This document shows positions 299-29,808 of a stretch of DNA of 41,809 bases, piece by piece. The notes beneath the pieces were generated by a model. The model was not told the origin of the DNA and searched no databases. It saw nothing but the letters and a program-made list of their open reading frames with translations. How positions within the stretch are numbered: the stretch's first letter is position 1; every line of letters starts with the position of its first letter. Source of the DNA: Bacillus sp. J33 (GTDB lineage Bacteria > Bacillota > Bacilli > Bacillales > Cytobacillaceae); NCBI RefSeq assembly GCF_000518885.1, contig NZ_JAEL01000049.1, forward strand, positions 1 to 41,809, read 5' to 3'. The position numbers were made by a program, and so were the translations under genes.

Positions 299-2062
299 CT
301 ACATTTTTATGATGCCATAAACATTTAGCAAAATATCTTCAAATTCTTCTTTTAAACTACTATGTGCAATAGAGTGCTCTAAAGTCCATGGTTGAGAGAT
401 ATAAACTTTTGTTTGTTCCACATTGTCGAAGTATCTATCTTTAATTTCATTCTCTTTTACTCTTTTACATTCATAAAAATTCGGCTCTACAGATTGCAAC
501 AATGATTCTATCCTTACAGCTATTTCTTCAAATTTTTGTTTCTGTTCAGCCCCTGAAAGTCTCTCTCTGACTTTTTCACCATAGATTGTTTTAGATTTAC
601 TTATTAAATCCTTCATCTGAACATATATGTTTTCTTCTAATTCACTTTTTAAGTGTTCACTTTCAAAAAAGTCAGATATTCTTCTATTTAGTTCGCTATT
701 CACTTTTATATAACAAGGTTCTTCATAATACTCTGCTGGTTTTAAATCTAAATCGGTTATTATAGAAACTGGAAAATTCATTGGCTTATTAACATCATCT
801 CTAATAAAGATGGATGAATATCGTTTAAATGCCAAATTGCCAACATTTATAATTGAAACTCCATATTTATGTAAGGGGCGTTCAATGATCTCCGCAATGG
901 ATGGTAATAACAAATTCTCTGCATCACCTTCTACAAAGATAACTCCTCTAGCAAAAAATAAATTAGCTTTAGTTGCATCTAAAAACCTTTCTAAAAATTC
1001 ATAGTCATCCGCTTCCAGTTTTGTTTGGCCTTTATTCATTGAAAAAGCTTGTTGATTGAAAATAAAAATAATATTTTCTAAGGATATTGAAGCTGCTAAC
1101 ACCGGGCTATGAGATGTGAAAATATATTGCATACCTGTTTCTTCAGCATTTTTTTCAAAGTGTTTAATAACTCGCAGTTGTGCCTGTGGATGAATATGTG
1201 CCTCTATCTCTTCTATCAAAGCAATTTTGGGTCCCACTTCTGTTTCACTTAGCAATAATAATTCAACAGCCATAAATAATAAATTGGAGCTTCCTAAGCC
1301 TGTTCCAATCTCTCCTAAGTTCAATTCTAGTTTTCTTAAAATCTCGGAGAAACTCATTTCCCGATTTTTTATTTCAGGTTCTTTCTTATTATTTTCCTCA
1401 AAGAATTCATTAACAGTTAGTCCAATTTTACTCAAAACCGGTTCATTCAGTACTCTTTTTAATTCATCAAAAGCGTGAGTAAAACTATCAACAATCTGCT
1501 GCTTTTCTGTGCTATCATCTGAAAAATCCCTTAAGCTTTTTACTACTTGAGCTACACGAGAACGTGTACCTGGGCTTAATTCAGTTGTAGCATCTCGTAA
1601 TGGCTTAAGATATGTTACTGCTAATAATTGTCGAACAGTATCTTCCATACCCACTTCTAAATTTTCTGGACCTGCTTTTACACTTCTTTTAATTTTCTTC
1701 TGTTTATTAGCATCTTCATAAATCTCTGCCTCCAATACAATGCGAAGTTCAGTAGTTTGTGATTGAAGCGATAACCATTCATAAAAATATGATTCTTCTA
1801 GTGAACTTAACTTCTTAAATATACATTCAATTTTTAATGAGGTATTATCTTTATTAAAGTCTTGTTCTGTCACCCAATTTATATCGTGACTGTTTGTTCC
1901 AAGAATTGTTTTAATGGAGTCGATGATTGCTGTTTTTCCTGAATCATTTTCACCAACTAAAATATTTAATCCTTCTTTAAACTCAACCTCAAACCCAGAA
2001 CTTCCATCTTCACCCACAGAAAATTTTCTCCAGTTCCATAATTTCAAACTATGTAGATACAT
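299..2062 (-). CDS. OLD-family ATP-dependent endonuclease (AAA ATPase plus TOPRIM)
   Basis: This 587-aa protein has an SMC/RecF-like ATPase start with Walker A GENDSGKTA (about residues 38-46). The signature and Walker B region reads ALIEEIEAHIHPQAQLR, followed by a switch motif FTSHSPVLAAS. After the ATPase comes a TOPRIM-like nuclease domain beginning FVEGDAENLLLPSIAEI (near residue 378), with a later acidic DLD. This order is that of OLD-family nucleases, which act in phage defence alone (P2 Old) or with a helicase (Gabija). The next upstream gene lies 99 nt away on the same strand, and a helicase-nuclease gene follows, which supports a defence role. The ATG start at 2062 has only a weak AAGGG ribosome site. 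The exact defence class is inference. Confidence 0.8.
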   Translation of the reverse strand: MYLHSLKLWNWRKFSVGEDGSSGFEVEFKEGLNILVGENDSGKTAIIDSIKTILGTNSHDINWVTEQDFNKDNTSLKIECIFKKLSSLEESYFYEWLSLQSQTTELRIVLEAEIYEDANKQKKIKRSVKAGPENLEVGMEDTVRQLLAVTYLKPLRDATTELSPGTRSRVAQVVKSLRDFSDDSTEKQQIVDSFTHAFDELKRVLNEPVLSKIGLTVNEFFEENNKKEPEIKNREMSFSEILRKLELNLGEIGTGLGSSNLLFMAVELLLLSETEVGPKIALIEEIEAHIHPQAQLRVIKHFEKNAEETGMQYIFTSHSPVLAASISLENIIFIFNQQAFSMNKGQTKLEADDYEFLERFLDATKANLFFARGVIFVEGDAENLLLPSIAEIIERPLHKYGVSIINVGNLAFKRYSSIFIRDDVNKPMNFPVSIITDLDLKPAEYYEEPCYIKVNSELNRRISDFFESEHLKSELEENIYVQMKDLISKSKTIYGEKVRERLSGAEQKQKFEEIAVRIESLLQSVEPNFYECKRVKENEIKDRYFDNVEQTKVYISQPWTLEHSIAHSSLKEEFEDILLNVYGIIKM

Positions 2063-2161
2063 CTCTTATCCCTTCTTACTACTAAAGAATTTGTATTTAA
2101 TACTCTTTTCCTTATAATTAACAATTTTTCAAACCTTGTAATCATATATTAAAATTTTATT

Positions 2162-3085
2162 TTATTTTAGCGCCCTAAACTTATGAGGAATCTCCTTTTG
2201 TTTTTTCACCTTCCAAAGAAAATCACCATTTACAAGCACATTTCCTTGTTCTAAGGTTGCGTTGTATTGGTTCCCACGTGCATCAAATAATAAAAGTTCA
2301 AATCGGTAGTCCTTGTTTCCAACACCGTATTCGTCAATATCCAATCTTAAAGGATCAGATGAACTGAAACCAACAAATAACTGACCAACTATTTCTGATT
2401 TGGGCTGTATTCCTATATTAAAATCAGCTCCAATTACCTTATCTATACCAAATATGGGATGGTGAGATAATTTCTTACCATCTTTATTATGTATGTTCAT
2501 ATAACCTGAAGTGATTGTAACTGGGTTCTCCGTGGTATTTGCCAATAGTACGTCTATTGACGCACAACCATCCAGGTCATGTACACCATAAAGGGTTTGT
2601 TCAAGCAATTTGACTTCAAATACCCCTTTGTTTTGATACATAAAATCAAAATCACTCCGCTTTGCTATAGAGTTTGAACTCCCCTTACGAATTAGGCACA
2701 AGCCTTCATTTAATTTATTGTATTTTCGTTTAAGCATATAAGGTTTGCTATTTGTATTAAATACTCTGAAAACACCAAGAAAGTTCCCTTCATATTCATA
2801 CTTAAAATAATCAAACTGAATGTCGGGTTCAATGTTACTCAAAATAACCTGGGTATAAATTGATGAATCAACAAATTCCTCTTGAGTAATTCCCTTAATT
2901 TCTTTTCCTTCTGGTCTATCCTTAATCCCAATAATGATGAATTTTTCTCCTTCATGACGGGAGTTGGCCATTGCCATAATGTCAGCAATTAGATCCATGT
3001 GCTTGTCTTTCGAATATTGTTTTTCTTTAAAGTCTAGATATTCACATTCATATCCAAACCTTATCAATTCTTCAATTTTTTCCAC
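2162..3085 (-). CDS. AlbA_2 (Schlafen-type) putative DNA-binding protein
   Basis: The N-terminal half resembles the AlbA_2 / Schlafen divergent ATPase domain: an ExxxxDFKE start, then DLIADIMAMANSRHEGEKFIIIGIKD, the typical acidic strand followed by the A-N and G-I-K-D block. The C-terminal half (about 170-307) is beta-rich with no motif I recognise. I place the start at GTG 3085 because AAGGAG lies 7 nt upstream; an open frame continues to a TTG at 3130 without a better site. AlbA_2 proteins appear as regulators and in several defence islands. Here it sits between an OLD nuclease and a helicase-nuclease on one strand, so a role in that module is likely but unproven. Confidence 0.65.
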   Translation of the reverse strand: MEKIEELIRFGYECEYLDFKEKQYSKDKHMDLIADIMAMANSRHEGEKFIIIGIKDRPEGKEIKGITQEEFVDSSIYTQVILSNIEPDIQFDYFKYEYEGNFLGVFRVFNTNSKPYMLKRKYNKLNEGLCLIRKGSSNSIAKRSDFDFMYQNKGVFEVKLLEQTLYGVHDLDGCASIDVLLANTTENPVTITSGYMNIHNKDGKKLSHHPIFGIDKVIGADFNIGIQPKSEIVGQLFVGFSSSDPLRLDIDEYGVGNKDYRFELLLFDARGNQYNATLEQGNVLVNGDFLWKVKKQKEIPHKFRALK

Positions 3086-3342
3086 GCCGTTTCTCCTTAA
3101 GTAAATTTTATATAAAGTATAATTCGACAAATATCACAATTCCCCTATATTTACCTAAGGAAATTTAGTGAATTCTTTAAGATATTAATTCAGTTTTATA
3201 GATAATATAAAAAGGACCCATTAATTTATACTTTATTAGAATTTAAGATTTCTAATTTGGTTACTTTTTCCAACATTTCATGGATGTGGTATTATCGAAG
3301 GTCTGAAATTAGGGTTTTAATAGGTCATTTTACACAACAAGA

Positions 3343-3398
3343 AAAGCCACATAACCTGTAAATCCTTCTAAATCTAGGTTACGAGGCTATGTGGCTTT
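3343..3398 (-). terminator. Hairpin terminator after the helicase gene; rest of 3086-3492 non-coding
   Basis: On the minus strand AAGCCACATA and TATGTGGCTT form an outer stem, with TAACCT/AGGTTA inside, followed by TTTTCTTGTT. This fits an intrinsic terminator for the helicase gene ending at 3493, and implies the AlbA_2 and OLD genes use their own promoter. Next to it on the plus strand is a short tandem repeat of TATGGCTTTC. I see no gene in the remainder of 3086-3492. Confidence 0.6.
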
Positions 3399-3492
3399 AT
3401 ATGGCTTTCTATGGCTTTCTAGGAATACCCCCTTATCGAATTATGTCATTTTCACGTGTTGGCCGGACGTGGATATATTGAAAGGGGTAGAA

Positions 3493-6400
3493 TCAACTTT
3501 TTTTATCAAAAAAGAATTTAAATCTCGCACCAACCGATTGAACAGCTGCCCAAGTATTCATTAGCAGATAATCTATTTGTATGATTTCTGGGTATTGTTT
3601 TAAATTTTCTTGCTTTTGATTGGTATACGTCTTTAAAGAAAACATATTTGCGGTCAGTGCCCATATGTAGGTAACAGATTCTGGATCTCTTTGATAATGT
3701 TTAATTAAATCCCAAATTTTTTGTGCTTCTAGATCCCCTTTAATTACTCTCTTCCTTGTCACTTCTTTTAACTTCCAATCCTCATTCCATTTTTCTACAT
3801 CATTAGGAACACGACTACTTAATGGATGTGCATAATCAAGATTTTTCATCACCTGAGAAACAATATCTTGAAATGCGGAAGCAGAATAAGAAGCTTTTTT
3901 TGATTTACAATGGATAAAATATATCCTTTTATTTTTGGTATCCAGGCCAATAAAATCCGATATTTCTTTTTTTAGGTCAGTACAAATTAAATAATCCATC
4001 TCTTTCAATGACATTTTAATTTCATTTTGTTCCTCCAAGTCCTTACCTAAAGAAGAGACTAAATAGAACAATGAGTCTTCGGCCCACTCCTCTCGCCGGA
4101 CATCTAGTTCTCCTTTTTCACTATTAATCCTTTTATCATCTTTAAGTTTGTATTCTCCAAAAACCCCATCCATTCTTCGATCATCAAAGGCGATTCCACT
4201 TTTTATAAATTCTTTTTTGTAATATATATGTGTCGCATCACTCGTAACAATATGAAAATCTTGATATCTATTTAAATAGCTAATCAATGACTCATTCTTA
4301 CGAACACTATATTCCTCAGTTATTTTATCTTCACTAAAACGGTAACTATTGTTTAAAGAGAACTCTTCAAATGATAAATTATATCTTTTGTTTTCAAAAT
4401 TAACATTGAGGCAAACCATTTCTCCATTTATTTTCAACTGAGTCTTATTATTTTCTATTTTGTAATTTAACTCTTCAATTTCAACTTTATTCCCATTCTC
4501 ATCAACTAAAATGTCTTCAAAATCATTAAAGTCAAAAGTAATTAAAATAGGGCTGGTATCTGCAGGAATTCCCACAATAGGCGAATATCTTTGAAAGAAG
4601 CTATTTGCTGCACCTGTCTCATTAAGAATTTTATCAGCTATTTTTTTGATCCAGTTTAAATAATCTGCTAGGTGCATATAACCCGAGTTATCGGATACCC
4701 GACTGTTTGAAAAACCGATATATCTTCTTCCCCGGCTACCCATTTCATTTACCGAACCCGTAATAGTTGTGCAAAAATTATATTTGTCAGTAATATTCGG
4801 TGCGATATTTTTCATATTTCTACTATTTATTACTTGTCTATGAATGTTATTTTGACTTATAATTCCGTTTTTTAACGTTACCTGTGTAAATTCTGCATCC
4901 TCATTGAAAAGAAATTGTAGTTTACTGGGGTTTACTGGTTCTGATAAATCCAAGATTATACTGGGTATATAATTGTTAGTATCATAAAAAAATAAATAAT
5001 TATTATTTAACCATAAAAAAAACAGCCCAAGTTTAACCTCTACAAATGATTCATTACTCAATATTGAAGAATTTCCAAACTTAGTATAAGTAACTATATA
5101 CATATCTTCACTTTCATGTTTATGTTTATTAATAACATACTCGTTTGAAAGCTCTTTCTGATTTATAATTTCATTTATGAACTTATCAAATCTAAACTCC
5201 CCTAATATCTCGTCTTTTAATGAAAAAATATTTGCTTTTAAAGGTAATCTATAACGGAAAAGCGTATCTCGAAATTCCATTGGTGTTTGGTCATCAAACT
5301 TTTTTAGGAATTTTCGGGAACCGTAAATATAGTCCGGCTGGTTTAATAAAAAGCTTTTGAAAAAATTTTTAAAGTTATTCGTAGGAAGTTTATCTCTTTG
5401 AGCTGTATCTGATTCATAATCAACATAAGTATTCCAGATATCTTCAAGATAATTATCTGCAGGATTTATTATTATCCAACTTTTTTCAAGACTACTATCA
5501 GGCCTTTCTTTCCGTAACGTCCTTCCTATCTGTTGTATAAATGACCTTGCATTGTCAAATCCACCATAAATAGCCAAAAAGGCAAACTTACTATCATCTA
5601 TTCCTTCAACTAATTTATTTTGAGCTAACCAATAAATTGCATCATTTTCAGTAGGTACGTCTTGGAATTTAGAATCATTATCTTTAGTATTCTTAAATCT
5701 TTCATGGATAGCGATTGCTTTTTCTTCTTTTCCATCTAAATAATCAATTGCTGTCTCCAAATCACTAAAGTTTGCAAATCTAATAATAATTTTTGGTTCA
5801 AAATTATTTTCCTCTTCAAACCTTCCTTTTAATTCCATGATCTTATCGATAAAAACACTTATTTTTACTTTTGAAGCTGGTATATCTTGATCAAGATATT
5901 TAAATTCAGGTGTTCTTATAATTTTTTCATCAATTGCTTCTTTTAATGAGTAATTATAAAAATATTTCTCATCAATATTAAAGATATGATAATCGTTTCT
6001 AATCGGTGTAGCAGTAAACAGAATTGTTTTCTTACCAAGACTTCTAATTGTCTCACTCCAAGTATTTGCTGGCTCTTTATGCCCTTCGTCAAATAAAATT
6101 AAATCAACATTGTCTTTTAAAGTATTAAACACTTCCTCGTTTTCATTTTTCACTTGAGTTAAAGCCTGTATAGTTGTGATAAATACCTTATTACCTTCCT
6201 TATCCACTAATTCAGAAGCATTTTTGGGAAATAAACGTTCAATTGACTTTTTTATTTCCAAGTCAATATTCATTTTTTCCCACAAATTTTTTTTAATTTC
6301 CTTATAAAGTTGTTCTCTAATAGCAGAAGAAGGGGAAACAATTAAAACATTATTGCATCCTTTAATAAACAATGCTAAAACACCTATTACGAATGTCTTG

Positions 6401-6543
6401 CCTGTACCCGTTGGCATCTTAATTAATGCTTGTTTAGCCGAAGAACTCTTTATATAGCTTAAAGAAGTTTCAATCGCTTTAACCTGATAAGTTCTTAATT
6501 TAGAAGATATTATTGAACGGTGTTCCCATTTAATTAAACTCAT
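3493..6543 (-). CDS. DEAD/DEAH (SF2) helicase with C-terminal nuclease-like domain
   Basis: This 1016-aa protein opens with a complete SF2 helicase: LRTYQVKAIE (Q-like), KMPTGTGKTFVIG (Walker A), LFDEGHKEPA (DEGH box), LFTATPIRND (motif III), and QQIGRTLRKERP (motif VI) near residue 340. The middle, about residues 400-750, has no motif I know. Toward the C-terminus, FGEYKLKDD is followed by EISDFIGLDTKNKRIYFIHCKSKK, which reads like a D ... (x)xK restriction-nuclease fold. That makes it a single-chain helicase-nuclease of the kind found in anti-phage systems. It is preceded after 6 nt by a small open frame. A Hachiman-like or other two-gene system is possible, but I do not see HamA. Confidence 0.75.
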   Translation of the reverse strand: MSLIKWEHRSIISSKLRTYQVKAIETSLSYIKSSSAKQALIKMPTGTGKTFVIGVLALFIKGCNNVLIVSPSSAIREQLYKEIKKNLWEKMNIDLEIKKSIERLFPKNASELVDKEGNKVFITTIQALTQVKNENEEVFNTLKDNVDLILFDEGHKEPANTWSETIRSLGKKTILFTATPIRNDYHIFNIDEKYFYNYSLKEAIDEKIIRTPEFKYLDQDIPASKVKISVFIDKIMELKGRFEEENNFEPKIIIRFANFSDLETAIDYLDGKEEKAIAIHERFKNTKDNDSKFQDVPTENDAIYWLAQNKLVEGIDDSKFAFLAIYGGFDNARSFIQQIGRTLRKERPDSSLEKSWIIINPADNYLEDIWNTYVDYESDTAQRDKLPTNNFKNFFKSFLLNQPDYIYGSRKFLKKFDDQTPMEFRDTLFRYRLPLKANIFSLKDEILGEFRFDKFINEIINQKELSNEYVINKHKHESEDMYIVTYTKFGNSSILSNESFVEVKLGLFFLWLNNNYLFFYDTNNYIPSIILDLSEPVNPSKLQFLFNEDAEFTQVTLKNGIISQNNIHRQVINSRNMKNIAPNITDKYNFCTTITGSVNEMGSRGRRYIGFSNSRVSDNSGYMHLADYLNWIKKIADKILNETGAANSFFQRYSPIVGIPADTSPILITFDFNDFEDILVDENGNKVEIEELNYKIENNKTQLKINGEMVCLNVNFENKRYNLSFEEFSLNNSYRFSEDKITEEYSVRKNESLISYLNRYQDFHIVTSDATHIYYKKEFIKSGIAFDDRRMDGVFGEYKLKDDKRINSEKGELDVRREEWAEDSLFYLVSSLGKDLEEQNEIKMSLKEMDYLICTDLKKEISDFIGLDTKNKRIYFIHCKSKKASYSASAFQDIVSQVMKNLDYAHPLSSRVPNDVEKWNEDWKLKEVTRKRVIKGDLEAQKIWDLIKHYQRDPESVTYIWALTANMFSLKTYTNQKQENLKQYPEIIQIDYLLMNTWAAVQSVGARFKFFFDKKS

Positions 6544-7159: not shown

Positions 7160-9013
7160 TTAAACTCTATATATTTCTTTGATGATTATATGCTTTAATT
7201 TATCAGCAAATTCACTTTTTAACCCTGCTGCACGGATTACTTCCCACTCACTTAATGAAGCTTTTGATTTTTTCAGTTCACCTATAAAATATTTAATCCT
7301 CCTTATTTGAAATTGTTCTATCGATTCTACATGCTTTTCAAGTGCTTCCCTTGTCTTTGGTAACCTGTCTATATAGTTGATAAAAGAGGTTAAAGATAGA
7401 GTACTTATCCTGCGACCAATTTCATTTTTACTAACCCTTGTTACTTCTCCAGCACCATTAATGATTTCTTTAGCTATTAACTCCACTTGCTCTGCTACAT
7501 CTTTGTCTCGACTTTCCCAATCTACTCTTTGGTTTAAGTTTTTGACTTTGCTTACCCTAGCCTTGGGACTATGTTCTTTTAGCCACCTCTCATCGTTTCG
7601 ATAAAGCCACAGGTATACAGAAGGGTTTAATGAACGGAGTTCTGTAACTGTTTTATCTCCATTATTTTTAATTAATAAAGACCATTCTTTCCTGTAACCC
7701 TCTAATAAAGGGTTTACTGAATTATTTTCAGTAAGTTGTTCTTTAATGTTCAACTTGTTTTTTACAGTCATTGGATCTACCCCAAGTATTTCCGCCTTTT
7801 TTCTTAAAGAAAGATCTTGCGTAGAGAGTTCAGCTAGTTTCTGTTCCCAAACAGGACCAAAAGTCTTTATTCGCCCAATTTTATAAAGGTCATCTTCTTT
7901 TTTATCAGGACCCCTTCTTGAATAAACAAAACCACATGTACAAGTAAATGTTCCAACAGGAACTTTCATTTTGAAATCATTAGTAATTTTACATGAAATG
8001 ACTACAGGCTTTTTAAAGTGCTCCGCTGCTCTATTCAAACATGGCCATGGCCCACTCCCGAATGGTTCAAAATCAGAATTGATTTGTTGCTGTAAAGATA
8101 AAATTGTTTCCCCTAGAAATCCTAACAGCAATATATGTCTTAGTGGGTGACAACTTACTTTTGGCTTTCTTAAAACCTTATGTAGCCAGGTATCTTCATC
8201 TGTTTCTGAAATATAGCATTTCAATTCTTTTAATAGGGATACACCATAAAATTGATTAAACTTAGGTATTAAATCAACCCATTTAATTCTCCCTGATATA
8301 GTCGCGAATCCTTGTTGTTTTAACCTTGCAATGTAAAACCTTCTCAAGTTCTCTAATCCGAATGGTTTAATGAGGTTATTAAGCAAATAAAAAGTTTGCT
8401 CAGAAATAAAAAACCGGTGTTTAAATTGAACGGAATCATCCTGACTACTAGAAACTTTATCTAAATGAACACTTTTTCCAAGAGAAGCCAAATCATGCTT
8501 ATTTTTTCTTTCTGAATACGGAACGTCTGAGTCTGTTAAATAACAACCATGTTTTGGGCATACCACCACCCCTTCTGCTTGATGAACTCTATGCCAGAAA
8601 CATTCACCATGGAGTGCTTTTTCTGTTTCTACACATTCTAAACAATACCTTAAATAATCTGGGCTTTTTATTTTGCTTGCGGGTATACCAATTTTCATAT
8701 AAATGAATTTCCCATCACTTTCACTCATCATTAGCTTTAATTCTTGGTACCTCTCGTTGGGGATAAAAGGAGCAAAGTAGGGCAAAAAAGTATGGTTATT
8801 TATTAATTGCTGATCAGAGTAACTTTCTGGGATGGGTAGTCTTCTAACTAATTTTCTAAAATTCGAAGGTAAGGTTGTAGCTGCACAGAGAGTACTGGAC
8901 CCAAACACCTCTTCCATAGTGATTTTTGAATTCTCATTGCCCGAATACTGATGATACCTTGCTAATACACTATAAAAAAGTTCATCTTCATACAAACAAG
9001 GGAAAAATATCAA
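7160..9013 (-). CDS. tnsD: TnsD/TniQ-family transposon target-selection protein (second copy)
   Basis: About 617 aa. It begins with the TniQ signature (IFFPCLYEDELFYSVLARYH), then a TnsD zinc-binding block: YCLECVETE, then FWHRVHQAEG and VCPKHGCYL. A second CTCGF knuckle lies near residue 375, and the long C-terminal half has predicted helix-turn-helix segments. TnsD proteins bind a fixed chromosomal site and recruit TnsC/TnsAB there. I place the start at TTG 9013, preceded by AGAGGTGAG; a GTG at 9022 lies inside that site. It is isolated from the tnsBC-tnsD genes at 35.8-41.5 kb and differs from that tnsD, so the element carries two selectors, perhaps for two targets. Confidence 0.85.
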   Translation of the reverse strand: MIFFPCLYEDELFYSVLARYHQYSGNENSKITMEEVFGSSTLCAATTLPSNFRKLVRRLPIPESYSDQQLINNHTFLPYFAPFIPNERYQELKLMMSESDGKFIYMKIGIPASKIKSPDYLRYCLECVETEKALHGECFWHRVHQAEGVVVCPKHGCYLTDSDVPYSERKNKHDLASLGKSVHLDKVSSSQDDSVQFKHRFFISEQTFYLLNNLIKPFGLENLRRFYIARLKQQGFATISGRIKWVDLIPKFNQFYGVSLLKELKCYISETDEDTWLHKVLRKPKVSCHPLRHILLLGFLGETILSLQQQINSDFEPFGSGPWPCLNRAAEHFKKPVVISCKITNDFKMKVPVGTFTCTCGFVYSRRGPDKKEDDLYKIGRIKTFGPVWEQKLAELSTQDLSLRKKAEILGVDPMTVKNKLNIKEQLTENNSVNPLLEGYRKEWSLLIKNNGDKTVTELRSLNPSVYLWLYRNDERWLKEHSPKARVSKVKNLNQRVDWESRDKDVAEQVELIAKEIINGAGEVTRVSKNEIGRRISTLSLTSFINYIDRLPKTREALEKHVESIEQFQIRRIKYFIGELKKSKASLSEWEVIRAAGLKSEFADKLKHIIIKEIYRV

Positions 9014-9080
9014 TACTCTCACCTCTAAAAGTTAAGTATCAACATTTTCCCCAATAATTACATAAGATATTACCTACTAT

Positions 9081-9158
9081 GAGATACCGGCATGACCAAC
9101 AATTTTCTTCCGAACATATTGCTCTCTACCTCCTGGTGCGAGATACTATCATGACCAG
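9081..9158. repeat. Pair of 19-bp imperfect direct repeats upstream of tnsD
   Basis: GAGATACCGGCATGACCAA (9081-9099) and GAGATACTATCATGACCAG (9140-9158) differ at four positions and start 59 bp apart, in the promoter region of the tnsD-like gene. Their spacing and size are compatible with protein-binding sites: a regulator, or TnsB-type end repeats. I find no third copy, and no transposon terminus can be defined here. Confidence 0.4.
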
Positions 9159-9245
9159 CTACCTAAGAGATGCTTTCAACATTCAAGCTACAAAACTCTG
9201 ACACTAATAACTTTGTCGTATTCGTTAATTGTTAATTATAAGGTT

Positions 9246-9434
9246 TTAACTAAAAAATAAGCTAAAAGCTTTATAAATAAGGTAAATAGCTCCTACCAGG
9301 AGCCATACTAACGTACCCGGTCATATAGGAAGGGGTTGCTTAACCTGTTTTCCATTGCCAGAAACGTTAGGCCGACTAATTCCTCAAGAACCAGTTGTAG
9401 TGCAATCAGCAGTTTTCTTAGTTACTTTTGACAT
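9246..9434 (-). CDS. Candidate small selenoprotein A, one-helix membrane protein with two in-frame TGA codons
   Basis: ATG at 9434 is preceded by AGGGAGG with a 7-nt spacer. The frame runs 62 codons to TAA, interrupted only by TGA at codons 17 (9384-9386) and 38 (9321-9323). With U for TGA the protein starts MSKVTKKTADCTTTGSUG and has a polar linker. It then reads PLPIUPG followed by one hydrophobic helix, TLVWLLVGAIYLIYKAF. The paralogue at 9553-9693 keeps both TGA codons in the same contexts. Six base pairs with a GGT apical loop lie 18-32 nt after the second TGA. Cys11 and Sec17 could form a redox pair facing the cytoplasm or membrane. I know no such family; if the host lacks Sec machinery these are two pseudogenes with coincident stops. 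Confidence 0.6.
9289..9303 (-). promoter_or_regulatory. Putative bacterial SECIS hairpin of selenoprotein A, second UGA
   Basis: In the mRNA sense GCTCCT-GGT-AGGAGC forms a perfect six-pair stem, starting 18 nt after the UGA at 9321-9323, with loop guanines at +24 and +25. Bacterial SECIS elements sit within the coding region just after UGA and carry a guanine in the apical loop, so size and distance fit. The same DNA could be a weak terminator instead. A shorter TTAG/CTAA stem-loop (loop TCGGC) follows the first UGA. Confidence 0.45.
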
Positions 9435-9532
9435 TTTAAAGCCTCCCTAAAAATATTGAAAATAACTCAAATCTAGTAATTTTTCTTCCATACTTTAAAA
9501 AGGCCATCAAATAATGAGCGATTTAAAAGTCA

Positions 9533-9553
9533 CAAAAAGGGCTAAGTAGCCCC
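9533..9553 (-). terminator. Intrinsic terminator between the two small candidate selenoprotein genes
   Basis: On the minus strand GGGCT-ACTT-AGCCC is followed by TTTTT. It starts right after the TAG of the upstream small gene (9553-9693), so it probably ends or attenuates the sulfur-cluster transcript there. The second small gene (9246-9434) then needs read-through or its own promoter. Confidence 0.65.
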
Positions 9554-9693
9554 TAAAAAAATTTTTGAATTAAAATGATGACTCCTGCCACAAGCCAAAT
9601 AAATACCCCGGGTCATATAGGAGGTAAATTTCTCCGAGGATTACTTTTCTTTTTTCCTCAAGTGCTATAGTTCTTTGAAAGATTCTTTCCCAT
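9553..9693 (-). CDS. Candidate small selenoprotein B, paralogue with two in-frame TGA codons
   Basis: ATG at 9693 follows AAAGGA by 8 nt and lies 21 nt after the stop of the HesB-like gene. The frame has 46 codons before TAG, with TGA at codons 12 (9658-9660) and 27 (9613-9615). Read with U it gives MGKNLSKNYSTUGKKK, a basic stretch, then LPPIUPG and a hydrophobic helix, VFIWLVAGVIILIQKFF. Compared with the gene at 9246-9434, the U-Gly and Pro-Ile-U-Pro-Gly contexts, the Trp and the Gly in the helix are conserved, while the linker differs in length (15 versus 21 residues between the two U). That pattern suggests selection on protein sequence. Function unknown; neighbours suggest sulfur or selenium redox at the membrane. 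Confidence 0.6.
9580..9596 (-). promoter_or_regulatory. Putative SECIS hairpin of selenoprotein B, second UGA
   Basis: In mRNA sense GGCTT and GGAGTC-type arms (with two G.U pairs) enclose a loop containing GG at +24 and +25 after the UGA at 9613-9615. This is the same distance as in the paralogous gene at 9246-9434, although the stem sequence has changed. The match in position is the main evidence; the stem is weaker. Confidence 0.35.
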
Positions 9694-9714
9694 TTGGCAT
9701 TTCCTTTCAGGAAT

Positions 9715-10002
9715 TTATAGTCTAATTACCTTGAATTGTCCAACTCCAAATAGGGACTTAACATAATCAATTTTGACATTATTAAAATAAACTTTATCTC
9801 TTTCGTTCACTAAGAATTGTATTCCATTTTCTTCTGTAATTTCATCATTTTCTAAAGCTGACTCTTCCAGAGCCAGACGAAGCTGGGGTCCCCCTCAACC
9901 AATGCCCATTGTAAGACGTATAAATGGTGTTTTGCCTTCATTTAAAACATCTTTTAATTCTTTTTTAATTTTAGTTATGGCTGCGTCAGTTATTTTAATC
10001 AA
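9715..10002 (-). CDS. HesB/IscA-like protein with in-frame TGA at the conserved cysteine (candidate selenoprotein)
   Basis: TTG at 10002 follows GGAGG by 7 nt, and 95 codons run to TAA at 9715. The only interruption is TGA at codon 36 (9895-9897). The protein is a HesB/IscA-type Fe-S biogenesis fold: KITDAAITKIKKEL, then LTMGIG-U-GGPQLRLALEE, then NGIQFLVNERDKVYFNNV, IDYVKSLFG and QFKV. In the family the residue before GGP is Cys, and HesB-like selenoproteins with Sec exactly there are an established group. A CCAG/CTGG hairpin lies 9-22 nt after the TGA. It sits 18 nt after a DsrE-like gene, at the tail of the sulfur operon. The alternative is a pseudogene made by a single TGC/TGT to TGA change. 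Confidence 0.6.
9873..9886 (-). promoter_or_regulatory. Possible SECIS-like hairpin in the HesB-like gene
   Basis: In mRNA sense CCAG-CTTCGT-CTGG forms a four-pair stem whose loop guanine is 17 nt after the UGA, near the lower limit of the usual bacterial distance. A competing GGGG/CCCC pairing lies between the UGA and this stem. Suggestive only. Confidence 0.3.
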
Positions 10003-10020
10003 TGCAATTCCTCCAATTGT

Positions 10021-10401
10021 TTAAAAATGAAAAAACAAATCCGCTGATACTGCCTCGTTTAGGACCCATTTGATCGGGACTTGTTCAGCCGGATAAATGA
10101 ATTGTGTGTCGTCCTTTATATCCAAATCAACTACATAAAGTTTAACGCCTGATTCAACAGCTATCTTTAGTAAATCGTGAAGGGAAGGCGCGTTGAAGTC
10201 TGATAGTGCATTAGATAGGTATTCAATTCCATCTGATGGAATGGGAATGTATTTTTCATCTAATATGTTTACTCCTTTTCGGGAAAACGCTAAAATTACC
10301 TCCGCCCCGGAAGAAGATGCCCCAACTGCAATGTTCAATGGGGGATAAGCAGACTCCAATTCATCATGAAGTGCTAAAACGACTACCTTTTTCGTCTTCA
10401 T
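10021..10401 (-). CDS. DsrE/DsrF-like protein lacking the active cysteine
   Basis: A 126-aa DsrE-fold protein (start MKTKKVVVLALHDELESAYP, then GAEVILAFSRKGVNIL, the usual strand-helix pattern). Where active homologues carry G-C-Q-M-T, this one has VVDLDIKDD, and the whole protein has no cysteine. It can therefore not carry a persulfide. In DsrEFH-type proteins catalytically dead partners form mixed oligomers, so a structural role with the Cys-containing DsrE gene 15 nt upstream is likely. It ends 18 nt before the HesB-like candidate selenoprotein, consistent with one transcript. Confidence 0.7.
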   Translation of the reverse strand: MKTKKVVVLALHDELESAYPPLNIAVGASSSGAEVILAFSRKGVNILDEKYIPIPSDGIEYLSNALSDFNAPSLHDLLKIAVESGVKLYVVDLDIKDDTQFIYPAEQVPIKWVLNEAVSADLFFHF

Positions 10402-10416: not shown

Positions 10417-10770
10417 TTAATAACTTAAAACAGCATCTGCTTGGTATGCTTGCTCTAAAAAGGTAACAACGCCTGCAAGTTCTGCTCCATCAATTAACTC
10501 CAAACCATCCGCAATTAATACATTCATCTGACATCCATAAATTCTAATTCCAGTATTCAAAGCGATGTTAAATAGTAATGAGAGATCCACTCCATGAGTC
10601 CTGGTCATTTTATTAAAATAACGTTTATCCAAAACACGGGCACCATCTAAATCAAAAAATATAGAGACTTCATTATCATTTTCAACCATTTCAATGGATG
10701 TCTTTAATACATAGGGAACATTTGAGCTTAACGAGACAAAGAATACTACTCTCTTCTTCCGCATGTCCAC
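10417..10770 (-). CDS. DsrE-like sulfurtransferase
   Basis: 117 aa, DsrE fold. It has the active-site context RIYGCQMNVLIADGLEL and the GVVTFLEQAYQADAVLSY C-terminal helix typical of the family. The Cys would carry a persulfide passed between TusA-like and rhodanese-like partners encoded upstream. It is followed at 15 nt by a Cys-less paralogue, suggesting a heteromeric complex. Expression is presumably from the promoter upstream of yrkE, since the intervening gaps are short. Confidence 0.75.
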   Translation of the reverse strand: MDMRKKRVVFFVSLSSNVPYVLKTSIEMVENDNEVSIFFDLDGARVLDKRYFNKMTRTHGVDLSLLFNIALNTGIRIYGCQMNVLIADGLELIDGAELAGVVTFLEQAYQADAVLSY

Positions 10771-10817: not shown

Positions 10818-11594
10818 TTATAAGATCTCCAACCAAGTCTTTATGGCAGTCGCTGCAATTATTAAAGCCAAAATTACCTGTAACGCTTTTGTGTTGACTT
10901 TTTTCCCAGCTGCGGCCCCTAACGGCGAAGCGATAAGACTGGCCACAATCATGATAATCGCCGGGCCATATTCCACTTGCCCTGTTGAGATTTTCCCAAT
11001 GGTTGAACCAATGGAGGAAATAAACGTAATCGCCAGTGAAGAGGCAATGGTCATTCTGGTTGGGATTTTTAGCACAACCAGCATGATGGGCACGAGCAGG
11101 AAGGCACCCGCCGCGCCAACGATTCCGGCCCCAATCCCGACGATAAAGGATAATGAAGCGGCAAGCCATTTATTAAATTTCACCTGGTCCAGCGGAATGT
11201 CATCAATTCCTTTTTTCGGGATAAACATCATGATTGCCGCAATCAAGGCGAGAATTCCGTAGACTAGATTAATCCCGCTCTCCGGCATTACATTTGAACC
11301 GTATCCGCCAATGAAACTCCCAATTAAAATACTGACCCCCATATACGCAATCAGCGTCTTGTTTAAGTACCCGCCTTTACGGTAGGCCCAGACACCTCCG
11401 ATTGTTGCGAAGAACACCTGTACTGCACTGATTCCGGACACTTCATGGGCGCTGAATGCCGCCACGCCCAGCAAAGGGGGGATATATAAAAGCATCGGGT
11501 ATTTTATAATGGAGCCTCCAATGCCCACCATGCCCGAAATAAAAGATCCAATAAAACCAATTAAGAAAATCGTGACAATAAAGGCAAAATCCAT
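10818..11594 (-). CDS. yrkJ: Sulfite exporter TauE/SafE-family membrane protein (cluster 1)
   Basis: 258 aa with about eight hydrophobic segments and the family repeats [18 protein letters not shown] and [12 protein letters not shown]. TauE/SafE proteins export small sulfur oxyanions or import sulfur compounds; in cst/yrk operons the partner is probably sulfite or thiosulfate made by persulfide oxidation. AAAGGAGG precedes the ATG at 11594. It lies 51 nt downstream of the TusA gene, as in the Bacillus yrkI-yrkJ pair. A second copy, nearly identical in its N-terminal region, is at 26930-27709. Confidence 0.85.
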
Positions 11595-11645: not shown

Positions 11646-11873
11646 TTAGGCTTTTTTAATCCAGAATTTGAACACATCATTCTCTTCTTCATGTTTGATC
11701 AATTCATGGCCGCCCGACTTGGCCCAGGCAGTTAAATCATTCTTTGCCCCCTTGTCGGTGGCATGAACTTCCAACACTTGGCCTGATTCCAATTCATTCA
11801 TCGCTTTCTTTGTTTTAACGATTGGCATCGGGCACGCCAATCCTTTTGCATCCAATACTTTGTTTGATTCCAT
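11646..11873 (-). CDS. yrkI: TusA-family sulfur carrier protein (cluster 1)
   Basis: 75 aa, full length for TusA. The motif DAKGLACPMPIVKTKKAM carries the single persulfide-accepting Cys, and the C-terminal half (ATDKGAKNDLTAW, GHELI) is typical. It shuttles sulfane sulfur among rhodanese, DsrE and dioxygenase proteins in the cytoplasm. It lies 28 nt downstream of the rhodanese-dioxygenase gene and belongs to the same operon. The paralogue at 27762-27989 is very close. Confidence 0.9.
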   Translation of the reverse strand: MESNKVLDAKGLACPMPIVKTKKAMNELESGQVLEVHATDKGAKNDLTAWAKSGGHELIKHEEENDVFKFWIKKA

Positions 11874-11901: not shown

Positions 11902-13029
11902 TTAGCGAACCGCACAGCGGTTTGGACCGATCTCCATTTCACGCTGCTTTTCTGTGTCCGGGCTGATTTTGCCCATATTGGTTTCACGAATTTCCTGGTA
12001 CGCATTTGGCTGCGGCGGAAGGTTTTCCGTCACTAGCTTCCTGAACTCGTTCTCATCTTCAATATTCAATCCGTGGTTCTTGGCAAACAATGTGCCAAGC
12101 TTCTCCGCGACACTTCCATCTTCATTCAGTTCGTCGATGATCATAAAGTGGGCAGGAAGCACGATCAATTCTTCGGATAGCTCTCTGTAACGCTTATACA
12201 GGCTCTCGCGCAGATCCCCAACCCAGTCCTCTGCCAACCCGGCAAGGTCAGGCCTTCCGATGGAATCGATGAACAGGATATCCCCTGAAAGCAGGAACTT
12301 CTCATCGACCACAAAGGAAGTGGAGCCTATTGTATGCCCTGGAGAGTATAAAGAATGAATATTGATCTTGGTTTCCCCAATGGCTACATCGTTTCCGCCT
12401 TCAAGCGGCTCATACTCAAAGGTCACTTCTGTGGCATCCTTTGGAGGCAGCCAGTATGTCGCATTTGTCTTTTCGGCGATCACCCGGCCTCCTGAGATGT
12501 GGTCCGCATGAAGATGGGTATCAAATACATGGGTAATCGTAGCCCCAATGCTTTTAGCAAATTCAAGATAGATGTCCGTCATCCTTGTCGCATCAATAAT
12601 AGCCGCCTCTCCATTAGAGACCACCATATAGGATAAACACCCTTTTCCAATACGGACAAACTGGAAAAGCTCTCCGCCATCCTTAAGATCCCCGACCTTA
12701 ACAGGCTCCAAATGTTCACTCCACGCTTTCATTCCACCCTCCAGGTAGGAAACGTCAAGTCCGGCATCCGACAGCATTTCCGCAACCATGACGGATGAAC
12801 CTTCTTTCGCACAGACAACGAGAATTTCTTGATCGGCTGGGATTTTGTCCATAATTTCTTCCACCCCATCAAGAAGTTCAAAATAAGGAACATTTAGATA
12901 TTGAAAGTTTTCCCCTTCAATTTTCCAATCCTGAAAATCACTTTCATTCCGGACATCCAATACAAACAGGTTTTCTTTATTGAAGACTTTCTTTGTTACT
13001 TCTTTTGAAGTCATTGCTTTAAAAGCCAT
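11902..13029 (-). CDS. yrkH: Rhodanese - metallo-beta-lactamase fusion (persulfide dioxygenase type, cluster 1)
   Basis: 375 aa. Residues 1-110 are a rhodanese domain (LDVRNESDF, active Cys73 in VVCAKEGSS). From about 120 an ETHE1-like MBL domain follows, with HLHADH at 172-177, SPGHTIGS (His232), SGDILF (Asp250) and LPAHF (His294). Such enzymes oxidise glutathione or bacillithiol persulfide to sulfite, or act with the rhodanese domain on thiosulfate. The domain order (rhodanese first) matches Bacillus YrkH rather than staphylococcal CstB, which has MBL first. The last residues (IGPNRCAVR) are shared with the copy at 28004-29140. Confidence 0.88.
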
Positions 13030-13069: not shown

Positions 13070-13465
13070 TTAGAATGTTAATGTCACATCAGCATCTTTG
13101 GCGAACTCAAGGAATGTCACCGCTCCGCCAACTTCAATCCCATCAACAAATGAATCTTTTTCAAGGCCCATAACATCCATTGTCATTTGGCAGCCAATAA
13201 ATTTGACTCCCATTTCCTGTGCCATTTCCGCCAATTCTGGAATGGCCGGAACGTTGGCTTTTTGAAAACCTTCCGCAAAGTGTTCTTTTCCTGCCGGCAT
13301 TGGAAGCTGCTGGTTGGCCTCTTTATGAATTAGGTTTAGTCCTTCAAATGTGAAGAAAATCGCTACTTCCTGATCCGTTGCTGCTGCTGCAGTCGCGATA
13401 TTGAAGACTTTATAGGCATCGAACATGCCACCGTTGCTTGCGATAATAGCTACTTTTTTATTCAT
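13070..13465 (-). CDS. DsrE/DsrF-like sulfurtransferase (cluster 1)
   Basis: 131 aa. The N-terminus (KKVAIIASNGGMFDAYKVF) and the GCQMTMDVMGLEK segment with its Cys define a DsrE-like persulfide carrier. It sits between the rhodanese-dioxygenase and the glutaredoxin genes with short gaps (40 and 12 nt). The gene order DsrE - Grx - TusA-rhodanese is repeated in cluster 2, so the three probably act as one relay. Confidence 0.85.
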   Translation of the reverse strand: MNKKVAIIASNGGMFDAYKVFNIATAAAATDQEVAIFFTFEGLNLIHKEANQQLPMPAGKEHFAEGFQKANVPAIPELAEMAQEMGVKFIGCQMTMDVMGLEKDSFVDGIEVGGAVTFLEFAKDADVTLTF

Positions 13466-13477
13466 ATCAAATTCCTC

Positions 13478-13720
13478 CTAGTTTTTTAATGCTAGCATTA
13501 TATTATTTGGATCATACCCAACAACCCATTTACCATTAATCTCTGTTTGAGGGATTCCCATTTGACCTGTTTTGTTCACAAGATGGTTCATCAGCTGTGG
13601 GTTGGTTTCAACATTTACCTCTTTAAATGGGATATTCTGCGACTCTAAAAAGTTTTTTAGCATGACACAATAGGGGCAGCGTGTTGTTGTATACACTGTA
13701 ACTGTGTTCATATCCTGCAT
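13478..13720 (-). CDS. Glutaredoxin-family protein, CPYC type (cluster 1)
   Basis: 80 aa. YTTTRCPYCVMLKNFLE carries the dithiol CPYC motif (residues 15-18), with the TGQMGIPQTEI cis-Pro loop and GYDPNNI end of NrdH/glutaredoxin folds. It probably reduces persulfide or mixed disulfide intermediates of the relay. The start at 13720 leaves 5 nt from the stop of the TusA-rhodanese gene upstream, a tight operon join. Confidence 0.85.
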   Translation of the reverse strand: MQDMNTVTVYTTTRCPYCVMLKNFLESQNIPFKEVNVETNPQLMNHLVNKTGQMGIPQTEINGKWVVGYDPNNIMLALKN

Positions 13721-13725
13721 TCTCC

Positions 13726-14301
13726 TTATTTATTTAAAGTATTGGTCTTTCCCGTCCAGGCACTCATACCTGGAACAACATTGATCACATTCGAAAATCC
13801 GTTTTCCGTAAGCTTCTGGGCAGCCAAATCACTACGGCTTCCTGTACGGCATACCACATAGATTTGATCGTCCTTGTTTAATTCACTTAGGCGCTCTTCC
13901 AATTCTCCCAACGGAATTGAAACAGCATTAGGAATATGGTTAAATGCATATTCAGCTGCCTCTCTTACATCAAGAACCACAATATTATCAAGGGCATCCA
14001 GCTTCTGTTCAAGTTCCTCATTGCTAGTTACATGGGGATGCTTTCTTTCAACTGAACCGTCATTTGATGATTTTCTAAGGTAATGCCTTAGTACATCTCC
14101 TTCTTCAATGGTTCCAAGATATTGGTGGCCGGCACTGTTTGCCCACGCTTGGAGGTCTGCTTTCGATCCCTTATCTGTCGCTTGAACTTCCAAGACCTGG
14201 CCAGCTTCCAATGTATTCATAGCCTTTTTTGTTTTGACAATCGGCATCGGACAAGCCAATCCTTTTGCGTCCAATGTTACGTTCACTTTGATGTTTTCCA
14301 T
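13726..14301 (-). CDS. yrkF: TusA-rhodanese fusion sulfurtransferase (cluster 1)
   Basis: 191 aa. Residues 8-80 are TusA (DAKGLACPMPIVKTKKAM). About 95-185 are a rhodanese domain (VLDVREAAEYAFNHIPNA, active loop VVCRTGSRSD with Cys). The fusion lets sulfane sulfur pass directly between the two carriers and matches Bacillus YrkF. It lies in the minus-strand operon between the glutaredoxin gene and a single-domain rhodanese 52 nt upstream. Confidence 0.88.
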   Translation of the reverse strand: MENIKVNVTLDAKGLACPMPIVKTKKAMNTLEAGQVLEVQATDKGSKADLQAWANSAGHQYLGTIEEGDVLRHYLRKSSNDGSVERKHPHVTSNEELEQKLDALDNIVVLDVREAAEYAFNHIPNAVSIPLGELEERLSELNKDDQIYVVCRTGSRSDLAAQKLTENGFSNVINVVPGMSAWTGKTNTLNK

Positions 14302-14353
14302 AGTGAGTCCTCCCGTTTAATACAGTATAGGGTATTTGTGAACCTAAAAGATT

Positions 14354-14659
14354 CTATTCAACTTTTCCTTCCCATGAAAGCATGCCGCCTGCCATATTAA
14401 TGACTTTATATCCATGGCTTTCAAGTGTTTGAGACGCGCGGCCGCTTCTTGCCCCTGAACGGCAAACCATGATATATTCTTTGGCTTTATCCAGCTCATG
14501 CAGGCGAAACTCAACTAATCCCAAAGGGATGTTGACCGCTCCCGGAATTTTTCCGGCAGCCACCTCATCTGTCTCACGAACATCGATGATGTTTAGCTGC
14601 TCTCCTTTGTTAAGCAACGCTTCCACTTCTTCAGCCGTCATTTCCCTCATTATGTTCAT
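14354..14659 (-). CDS. Single-domain rhodanese-like protein
   Basis: 101 aa, one rhodanese domain: IIDVRETDEVAAGKIPGA, active loop MVCRSGARSGRA with Cys, and the C-terminal NMAGGMLSWEG. Length and loop fit GlpE/PspE-like cytoplasmic sulfurtransferases. It has no counterpart in cluster 2. It lies 15 nt from the membrane-anchored rhodanese gene upstream, so both are probably made together. Confidence 0.85.
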   Translation of the reverse strand: MNIMREMTAEEVEALLNKGEQLNIIDVRETDEVAAGKIPGAVNIPLGLVEFRLHELDKAKEYIMVCRSGARSGRASQTLESHGYKVINMAGGMLSWEGKVE

Positions 14660-26756: not shown

Positions 26757-26933
26757 ATGAATTTTTTAAAATCATTATTTAATGAAAAATGTCCTGCCTG
26801 TCATAAAGTTTTACGTACCGATCAATCAAATACTTTATTCTCGGTAGTAGTTAAAACGTGTCCAAATAATCATTTTAAAAAGGAATACCATCCTGCACTG
26901 GAAATGTATATTGAATCAAAAATGCATTGTTAG
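26757..26933 (+). CDS. Small Cys/His-rich protein (putative zinc knuckle)
   Basis: 58 aa from ATG 26757 with AGGAGG 8 nt upstream and a good promoter. Motif CPACH (Cys12, Cys15), then TCPNNHF (Cys35, His39), His46 and a C-terminal Cys58. This could bind one zinc ion or react with sulfane sulfur. Its stop overlaps the stop of the convergent TauE gene by 4 nt. I recognise no family name. It is too small to judge by similarity, but signals for expression are good. Confidence 0.65.
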
Positions 26934-27709
26934 AGTAAAATATCGGACCAAATTTTAATGGAAGTAGCCAGAATTAACAGCGCCAAAATCCATTGAAGGA
27001 TTTTGGTGTTTATTTTTTTCCCGGCATTTGCCCCAAGAGGTGAAGCAATTAAACTTGCTACAATCATGATTGCGGCTGAATAATATTCAACTTGACCCGT
27101 TGTTATTTTTCCTACCATGGCACCAATTGAAGAAATAAATGTAATGGCCAAAGAGGTGGCAATGGTCATCCTTGTCGGAATTTTCAAGACCACGAGCATG
27201 ATTGGGACCAGAATAAACGCACCTGCGGCTCCCACAATCCCTGCTCCGATTCCCACTGCCAAAGCCAAACCTGCTGCAAACCACTTATTAAATTTGACTT
27301 GATCGGGAGGAATATCATCCAATCCTTTTTTTGGGAGAAACATCATCACTACAGCAATCAAAGCAAGGATGCCATATACAAAGTTAATCCCATTCTCGGT
27401 CATCAGCTTGGATCCGTATCCCCCTATAAAACTCCCAATAAGGATTGCGAAACCCATATAAACGATTAATGTTTTGTTCAAGTATCCACCTTTTCGGTAA
27501 GCCCATACTCCGCCAATGGTTGCAAAGAAAACTTGTACCGCGCTTATTCCTGAAACTTCATGAGCGCTAAAGGCTGCCAATCCAAATATTGGCGGAATGT
27601 ATAATAGCATTGGATACTTTATGATAGATCCACCAATCCCTACCATCCCGGAAATAAACGAACCAATGAACCCTATTAAAAATATAACGATTATAAAGGT
27701 AACTTCCAC
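26930..27709 (-). CDS. yrkJ: Sulfite exporter TauE/SafE-family membrane protein (cluster 2)
   Basis: 259 aa, about eight hydrophobic segments, with [18 protein letters not shown] and [12 protein letters not shown]. It is a close paralogue of the gene at 10818-11594, with many scattered replacements and a visibly different codon choice. It is the last gene of cluster 2, 52 nt after TusA. It presumably exports sulfite or related products of persulfide oxidation. Confidence 0.85.
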
Positions 27710-27761
27710 TTACCTGATCCTCCGTTCAAAAGGGGAAGGGTAACCTTAGGGTTACCTCAGC

Positions 27762-27989: not shown

Positions 27990-28003
27990 GGAAATATCCT
28001 CCT

Positions 28004-29140: not shown

Positions 29141-29154
29141 ATGTTTCCCCTCCT

Positions 29155-29391: not shown

Positions 29392-29403
29392 ACCATTTCT
29401 CCT

Positions 29404-29793: not shown

Positions 29794-29808
29794 TCCTTTT
29801 CCTCCTCA

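Follow-up and report, generated by a model that had tools for sequence, protein, structure and literature searches.

A candidate family of two-selenocysteine membrane microproteins in Bacillales and a putative recoding hairpin shared by both UGA codons

We analysed a stretch of 41,809 nucleotides (nt) of Bacillus sp. J33 (contig NZ_JAEL01000049.1 of assembly GCF_000518885.1; hereafter the window), the minus strand of which carries two small tandem frames, copy 1 and copy 2, each with two in-frame TGA codons (Table 1). We refer to these codons as UGA-1 and UGA-2, at sites 1 and 2 respectively. An earlier note, made from the letters of the sequence, had described the frames as each having its own ribosome site and ATG, and the TGA codons as standing in matching contexts despite linkers of different length; both descriptions hold. 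Each copy starts with ATG and has a five-base match to a ribosome site 7–8 nt ahead of it. With TGA written as U, for selenocysteine (Sec), copy 1 reads MSKVTKKTADCTTTGSUGISRPNVSGNGKQVKQPLPIUPGTLVWLLVGAIYLIYKAFSLFFS and copy 2 reads MGKNLSKNYSTUGKKKSNPRRNLPPIUPGVFIWLVAGVIILIQKFF. Site 1 lies in S-U-G in copy 1 and T-U-G in copy 2, site 2 lies in P-I-U-P-G in both and is followed by the hydrophobic segment, and the two codons are 21 codons apart in copy 1 and 15 in copy 2. Because it has no Cys before UGA-1 and its hairpin is weaker (-4.1 kcal/mol), we regard copy 2 as the more diverged. Neither copy matches a family in NCBIfam or Pfam at E≤0.1, a scan of the window against Rfam at gathering cut-offs gave no match, and a tRNA scan of the window found none. 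A sub-threshold fluoride riboswitch on the opposite strand, returned by a permissive Rfam scan of 8900–10100, is taken as chance.

Table 1. Features of the two frames and of the adjoining sulfur genes; positions are those of the window.
Feature	Position	Strand	Remarks
Copy 1, putative double-Sec membrane microprotein	9246..9434	minus	62 codons + TAA; Cys11, Sec17, Sec38; one hydrophobic predicted membrane segment
UGA-1 of copy 1 (predicted Sec17, codon 17)	9384..9386	minus	family-conserved
UGA-2 of copy 1 (predicted Sec38, codon 38)	9321..9323	minus	in P-I-U-P-G, where the hydrophobic segment begins
Putative SECIS hairpin of copy 1	9288..9304	minus	GGCUCC-UGGUA-GGAGCU; stem starts 17 nt past UGA-2; agrees with the published bSECIS model
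P1 helix of copy 1, 5' strand	9358..9370	minus	14–26 nt past UGA-1
P1 helix of copy 1, 3' strand	9308..9320	minus	1–13 nt past UGA-2, directly ahead of the hairpin
Copy 2, tandem paralogue	9553..9693	minus	46 codons + TAG; Sec12, Sec27 predicted; no Cys ahead of Sec12
UGA-1 of copy 2 (predicted Sec12, codon 12)	9658..9660	minus	
UGA-2 of copy 2 (predicted Sec27, codon 27)	9613..9615	minus	
SECIS-like hairpin of copy 2, weaker	9580..9596	minus	closing pair lost; -4.1 kcal/mol
P1 helix of copy 2, 5' strand	9634..9646	minus	
P1 helix of copy 2, 3' strand	9597..9611	minus	
HesB/IscA-like selenoprotein candidate	9715..10002	minus	one UGA at 9895-9897 (GIG-U-GGP); hairpin CUGGCUC-UGGAA-GAGUCAG at 9858-9876
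DsrE2-like protein	10021..10401	minus	
DsrE2-like protein	10417..10770	minus	
TauE/SafE family membrane transporter	10818..11594	minus	same domain as YrkJ; cluster in PMC9918477 (available part)
TusA sulfurtransferase	11646..11873	minus	
Rhodanese + metallo-beta-lactamase-fold protein, putative persulfide dioxygenase	11902..13029	minus	YrkH-like by domain content alone; PMC9918477 (available part)
DsrE2, glutaredoxin, TusA-rhodanese and rhodanese genes of the same run	13070..14659	minus	

Searched with copy 1 at E≤0.01, the GTDB family (193 genomes) gives matches in 79 genomes. An alignment of 34 diverse rows (A1), used as the query for wider searches, matches 80 of these 193 genomes, 56 of 397 genomes of the order (ten of them belonging to the GTDB family) and, at E≤0.001, 3 of 398 genomes drawn from the phylum (the host, G085 and G917); G917 lies outside the class, and its member of the family retains the two UGAs as well as the hairpin described below. 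All 77 family rows with E≤1e-9 (75 genomes) hold two TGA codons, and two of the 77 also hold a TAA. The remaining eight family rows are either judged decayed or partial (G149, G178, G191 and the second place in G138) or regarded as unrelated (G040, G185 and the second places in G012 and G021). At E≤1e-7, 49 of 52 order rows hold at least two TGA codons; of the other three, G501 and G321 hold both UGAs on reading, and site 2 of G500 is TGT (Cys). Invariant positions in A1 are the two U, the P after, one W and one G.

Searching the fetched loci for the gene pattern yielded 112 hits, from which two were dropped as noise (L042 on the plus strand and L153 on the minus strand) to leave 110 distinct gene versions. 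Site 2 is UGA in 109 of these and Cys in one; the count at site 1 is not independent, because the search pattern demanded UGA there, and the same holds for the spacing of the UGAs (14–22 codons in one frame across the family), since the pattern imposed the frame. The predicted proteins are about 46–62 residues long, carry a hydrophobic segment in 110 of 110 cases (15-residue hydropathy ≥1.34), and have a Cys no more than 7 residues ahead of site 1 in 106 of 110, copy 2 being without one. Viral contigs yielded neither the protein nor the DNA pattern. A separate contig collection, in which the Bacillales loci themselves were not recovered, gave four places with the DNA pattern, all of them unrelated frames. 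A further in-frame TGA follows a KAF(S/N/M)-like end in L020-L025, L027, L032, L034, L035 and L037, where other versions have TAA or TAG, and in these genes TGA may be both a Sec codon and a true stop.

The agreement between the copies, which the earlier note had thought hard to explain by random decay, is thus far beyond chance in the family at large, and the TGA positions do not vary freely among homologues (77 of 77 strong rows). That the frames are pseudogenes whose stops coincide through chance decay is already contradicted by this conservation, and we give it a negligible probability. Some copies are truly decayed (L058, L162, L186, L187, L188, L193 and L202), an observation on the side of decay and against a selenoprotein. 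No TAA or TAG stands at either site in copies in which both sites align; among the decayed ones, site 1 of L187 cannot be placed and L202 has TAG directly ahead of UGA-1.

Homologues with Cys at the same sites, for which the earlier note had proposed to look, are rare and do occur. Five proteins in a database of 5.8 billion sequences match A1 at E≤0.01, and one of them, P0004 (Bacillus sp. 1P06AnD), reads ...GSCGI...PLPICPGVLLW..., with Cys at both sites; G500 has Cys at site 2 only. The other four (P0003, P0005, P0006 and P0007) show Trp at the sites, presumably TGA translated by a code-4 gene caller. If taken at face value, these four would favour an alternative in which UGA codes for tryptophan or some other residue, through readthrough or an altered code, and Trp would suit a position beside a membrane helix. 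We consider this very unlikely given our reading of the four proteins as gene-caller output, the Cys forms, the association of the gene with selB (see below) and the resemblance of its hairpin to that of the HesB-like gene; moreover, selA and selB of the host are open and free of TGA, and the sole TGG at site 2 sits in the decayed copy L187.

Sec machinery, the absence of which from the host would have spoken against selenoproteins, is present: selA (564.3 bits), selB (383.6 bits) and tRNA-Sec (two places over the cut-off). Formate-dehydrogenase-type matches in the host (13; G000:C110, C192, C184, C150, C178, C99, C176) are all open without TGA, so the machinery is not explained by formate dehydrogenase homologues. 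A second SelA-like frame (L211, G000:C194:52794-53678) has one internal TGA and is either decayed or itself recoded. Across genomes, selB was found in 49 of 52 carriers of the microprotein gene in the order as against 130 of 345 other genomes (Fisher, 9.7e-16), and in 76 of 78 carriers in the family as against 94 of 115 others (5.9e-4), with related genomes treated as independent in both comparisons. Decayed copies count as carriers in these tables, and rows taken as unrelated are left out, namely four weak ones (G193, G401, G487 and G568) from the order table and G040 and G185 from the family table.

Several carriers speak against the association. Four of them, G171, G175, G452 and G523, have no selB match, the first two also being without selA or tRNA-Sec over the cut-offs, and G389 lacks a selB match in an assembly of 480 contigs. 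The gene lies in islands, and those of G171 and G175 are 99.99% identical to that of G048 over 13.9 kb, whereas that of G523 is 100% identical to that of G051 over 16 kb. The partner islands sit in selB-positive genomes, and because of this near-identity it is likely that the selB-less carriers acquired the island by recent transfer and read its UGAs as stops. The G452 island, only 91–95% identical to others, does not fit this explanation as well. Copies of a mobile persulfide island with the HesB-like selenoprotein gene (HesB-U) and the double-Sec gene were seen at L105/L209, L104, L191, L100, L174, L173 and L170, and on three Cytobacillus plasmids, some of them in hosts without a selB match.

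The selenoprotein reading of the earlier note is therefore supported by UGA conservation, Cys forms and Sec machinery, and also by a hairpin after UGA-2. We conclude that the two frames almost certainly belong to a new family of double-Sec membrane microproteins, a judgement that draws on comparative sequence analysis.

Bacteria insert Sec at UGA with the help of a selenocysteine insertion sequence (SECIS), a hairpin that, as the earlier note stated, lies just downstream of the codon. The published bacterial model (bSECIS) specifies a loop of 3–9 nt, a stem of 4–16 bp, G in the first two loop positions, a spacing of 16–37 nt and an energy of -7.5 kcal/mol or lower (PMC13188914; for all papers cited here by PMC number, statements refer to the parts of the text available to us). 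We examined 49 representatives, a greedy choice with ungapped identity below 70%. After UGA-2, all 49 can form GGCUCC-UGGNA-GGAGYC or a variant losing at most one pair; at each of the six positions of the stem, 48 or 49 representatives can pair, with one C-G pair replaced by G-C in three and the next U-A pair by G-U in two. The bSECIS model is satisfied here in 41 of 49 representatives and 96 of 110 gene versions. Two codons behind the hairpin look as if held beyond the need of the protein: one is CTC, a codon that accounts for 8% of the Leu codons of genes nearby, in 39 of 49, and the other is CTG in 48 of 49.

UGA-1 is different. A model-conforming hairpin is present in only 4 of 49 representatives (L043, L046, L164 and L203) and 7 of 110 gene versions, the result for representatives being the same whether or not the searched stretch was cut at UGA-2, and local structure there does not exceed that of codon shuffles (mean z -0.02, 55 genes). 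We therefore reject a separate local SECIS for each UGA in most lineages. The stretch after UGA-1 is, however, complementary to the stretch directly after UGA-2, and we refer to the long-range helix that they can form as P1.

P1 is best seen when strands are exchanged among the representatives: own strands pair at -13.17 kcal/mol as against -9.42 kcal/mol for swapped ones (z -11.1, 0 of 5000 permutations), with z of -1.1 and -0.9 for two control stretches, although we note that swapping does not remove all relatedness among the sequences. For 47 of 49 representatives, the minimum free energy fold includes the hairpin together with P1 (scored as at least six pairs between the two stretches), as compared with 7.9% of synonymous shuffles. 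The energy of P1 relative to synonymous shuffles has a mean z of -2.02; an initial codon-shuffle test without constraint gave a weak signal (mean z -1.19, p<0.05 in 13 of 55), and because the restricted form of the test, which was stronger on the 49 representatives, was chosen after these first results, the swap test is the better evidence. Among 19 long forms aligned without gaps, 89.2% of cells pair, as against 29–51% when the strands are slid by 1–3 columns, and 14 cells have changes on both sides, as against 7.4 in shuffles. P1 starts at a median of 13 nt past UGA-1 and ends 3 nt ahead of the hairpin, closing a loop of about 30 nt (median) that contains UGA-2; with P1 formed, the hairpin is effectively 15 nt (interquartile range 12–19) from UGA-1, and it is 16 nt from UGA-2. 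L041 and L046, the only representatives whose folds lack P1, have a local hairpin at UGA-1 (-2.2 and -9.1 kcal/mol respectively). G500, with Cys at site 2, retains both the hairpin and a P1-like pairing (-10.5, a value with no control comparison), as expected if both serve UGA-1. The P1 structure is thus supported, and from it we infer a role in decoding.

We propose that a single hairpin with the apical loop UGGNA would serve both UGA codons. With a ribosome at UGA-1, P1 would pair the stretch about 13 nt past this codon with that directly after UGA-2, looping out UGA-2 and placing the SelB-binding hairpin about 15 nt from UGA-1; as the ribosome advanced, P1 would melt, and the same hairpin would then lie 16 nt past UGA-2. 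Four observations point to one SECIS for the two codons: the rarity of a hairpin at UGA-1, the supported P1 pairing, the local hairpins in the folds without P1, and the pattern in G500. We think that the hairpin is probably common to both codons. The earlier note missed this proposed shared RNA signal, which is the more unusual part.

Not all of the observations favour this arrangement. P1 alone appears in 39% of shuffled folds (as compared with 47 of 49 native ones), its energy is significant (p<0.05) in only 27 of 49 representatives, and its register varies. Two of its pairs are unpaired in 11 and 8 of the 19 long forms, and three pairs show a double change, a count that 138 of 500 shuffles reach. 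L043 is counted among the 47 folds despite a poor duplex (-7.3) and a UGA-1 hairpin of its own (-8.5). In the window, the hairpin of copy 2 is weak and falls short of the bSECIS energy limit.

In a rival reading, the protein also has two Sec, but UGA-1 is decoded through a signal of its own, either P1 as a SECIS with a large loop or a local element of non-canonical type, and UGA-2 alone depends on the hairpin. Bacterial SECIS elements that deviate from the model exist (PMC13188914), and the few lineages with a conforming UGA-1 hairpin named above agree with such a signal. We regard it as unlikely, since 45 of 49 representatives are without that hairpin, shuffles reveal no excess local structure at UGA-1, the P1 loop of about 30 nt holding UGA-2 is beyond the 3–9 nt of the model, and G500 retains the hairpin despite having Cys at site 2.

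The charge distribution bears on the topology of the product. The positive-inside rule allows membrane topology to be read from charge, and the linker before the hydrophobic segment has a mean net charge of +2.9, compared with +0.1 after it (the linker being higher in 107 of 110), which suggests that both Sec are on the cytosolic side. We accordingly propose that the product would span the membrane once with its N terminus inside, one Sec being part of a Cys...Sec pair and the second lying at the membrane face.

The gene adjoining the microproteins on the upstream side encodes the HesB-like candidate, with the run of sulfur genes further upstream (Table 1). It is likewise UGA-decoded by prediction and has a closely similar UGGNA hairpin; it differs in being an IscA-type protein with one UGA, and no resemblance to the microprotein was noted. 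The protein is related to TIGR01911 and NF038090 and in the window scores below the cut-offs of both. At HesB-like sites of the same genomes the hairpin is CUGGCUC-UGGAA/G-GAGUCAG or a close variant. Of 24 such sites, 23 have UGG in the stretch where it is expected, and the remaining one is truncated there because its locus ends. The likeness between the two hairpins lies at the RNA level, because the encoded residues differ (LALEES as against WLLVGV). Less favourable to the comparison, only 9 of the 24 HesB-like hairpins pass -7.5 kcal/mol, most of the others being at -7.1 or -7.2.

Of the 110 loci, 79 have TusA, rhodanese, DsrE or persulfide-dioxygenase-type proteins no more than 4.5 kb away, a count made without a random-locus control. 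Other neighbours are TauE (37 loci), an unannotated membrane protein (30), glutaredoxin (27), a CsoR-type regulator (21) and an FAD/NAD oxidoreductase-like protein (17). These 110 loci include near-duplicates (L094/L095 and L104/L105/L191), cuts at contig ends and decayed copies (L162 and L188), and the neighbour classes come from single-linkage clustering, which merges TusA, rhodanese and related proteins. The unannotated protein is polytopic, starts with M-x-(V/I)IQIGSF and is often just downstream (e.g. L170); one representative, scanned against Pfam and NCBIfam, has no match.

This setting also bears on the alternative of a structured RNA or Se-sensing leader in which the frame is incidental. 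The strong conservation of the RNA structure and the gene close behind it in many loci would suit such an element. We find it scarcely credible in view of the protein conservation over 34 diverse rows (the invariant U, U, P, W and G), the hydrophobic segment in every gene version and the existence of Cys forms, and in the window the next gene on the same strand encodes TnsD and not a sulfur protein. The single frame shared by the UGAs is no independent evidence here, as it was imposed by the pattern.

As to function, the earlier note had suggested a partnership with the adjoining sulfane-sulfur genes. The neighbourhood bears out this part of the suggestion, and the molecular function stays a matter of inference. 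We envisage that the protein, tethered to the membrane, would use its Cys and two Sec to relay sulfane sulfur or electrons between cytosolic TusA, rhodanese, DsrE2 and persulfide dioxygenase and membrane partners such as TauE. Based on neighbourhood and charge, such a sulfur-relay function is possible but tentative, and the reliance on gene neighbours uncalibrated against random loci counts against it. The explanation as a whole, namely double-Sec microproteins with a hairpin shared via P1 and a part in sulfane-sulfur relay, we hold to be probable. We lean only slightly towards the joint proposal that P1 times a shared SECIS, that the product is a membrane selenol relay of the sulfane-sulfur pathway and that this product, with HesB-U, may be one reason among others for these Bacillales to keep Sec machinery.

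The neighbouring genes recall the yrkD-J/cst sulfane-sulfur clusters, of which yrkD-J is used by B. licheniformis against sulfide and sulfane sulfur (PMC9918477). Shared components are DsrE, TusA, rhodanese, a YrkH-like persulfide dioxygenase, TauE and a CsoR-type regulator. HesB-U and the double-Sec microproteins are additions here, and the available text of PMC9918477 contains no word beginning with 'selen'. The family would tie selenium to persulfide handling in Bacillales.

Among known bacterial selenoproteins (119 families and subfamilies in Table 1 of PMC13188914), some of which have two or three Sec, that table in its available form lists no family with U...P-I-U-P-G in a small single-helix protein, and the available parts of PMC12013277 (deep-Sep), PMC9312934 and PMC5322559 contain no such family. 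A scan of 34 members against NCBIfam (June 2026) gave no relevant model, with two weak unrelated matches to one member each (E 0.13 and 0.17). The selenobacteriocin TIGR04081, considered for its SGUG motif and two Sec, is not among the NCBIfam matches at E≤1, assuming that the release includes the model. Full-text literature searches found nothing resembling the family, nor a SECIS common to two UGAs in bacteria. The microprotein hairpin shares with bSECIS elements a stem of 4–16 bp and G in the first loop positions, 22 nt from UGA-2, and differs in its proposed service to a second, upstream UGA via a long-range helix. Selenoprotein P of eukaryotes likewise has several UGAs per mRNA and few SECIS elements, but these are in the 3' untranslated region and act with eukaryotic machinery. 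If correct, the shared SECIS departs from the described bacterial layout, in which a SECIS lies immediately downstream of each Sec codon, and would provide a compact, testable model of structure-timed recoding. The microprotein is very small for a carrier of two selenocysteines, and the family adds a widespread group of selenoproteins overlooked by gene calling; for plasmid pBO1 (Cytobacillus oceanisediminis 2691), the gene table of which is stated to be incomplete, no gene is listed over the microprotein or HesB-U.

Several further features of the window were seen. Tn7-like TnsD genes lie toward both of its ends, one of them directly after copy 1 (TnsD/TniQ at 7160-9022 and 35816-37720), and a Mu transposase C-terminal domain is at 39429-40595; because of the placement of the TnsD genes, the sulfur run may be mobile cargo. 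Beside TnsD, 299-6543 encodes an OLD-like AAA/TOPRIM protein, a Schlafen AlbA protein and a ResIII/SNF2-type helicase, and resembles defence cargo. A second, diverged set of sulfur genes (TauE, TusA, metallo-beta-lactamase-rhodanese, glutaredoxin, DsrE2 and TusA-rhodanese) occupies about 26930-30399. Between copy 1 and TnsD, at about 9070-9160 of the minus strand, are two similar stretches (GGTCATGATAGTATCTC and GGTCATGCCGGTATCTC), perhaps transposon end repeats.

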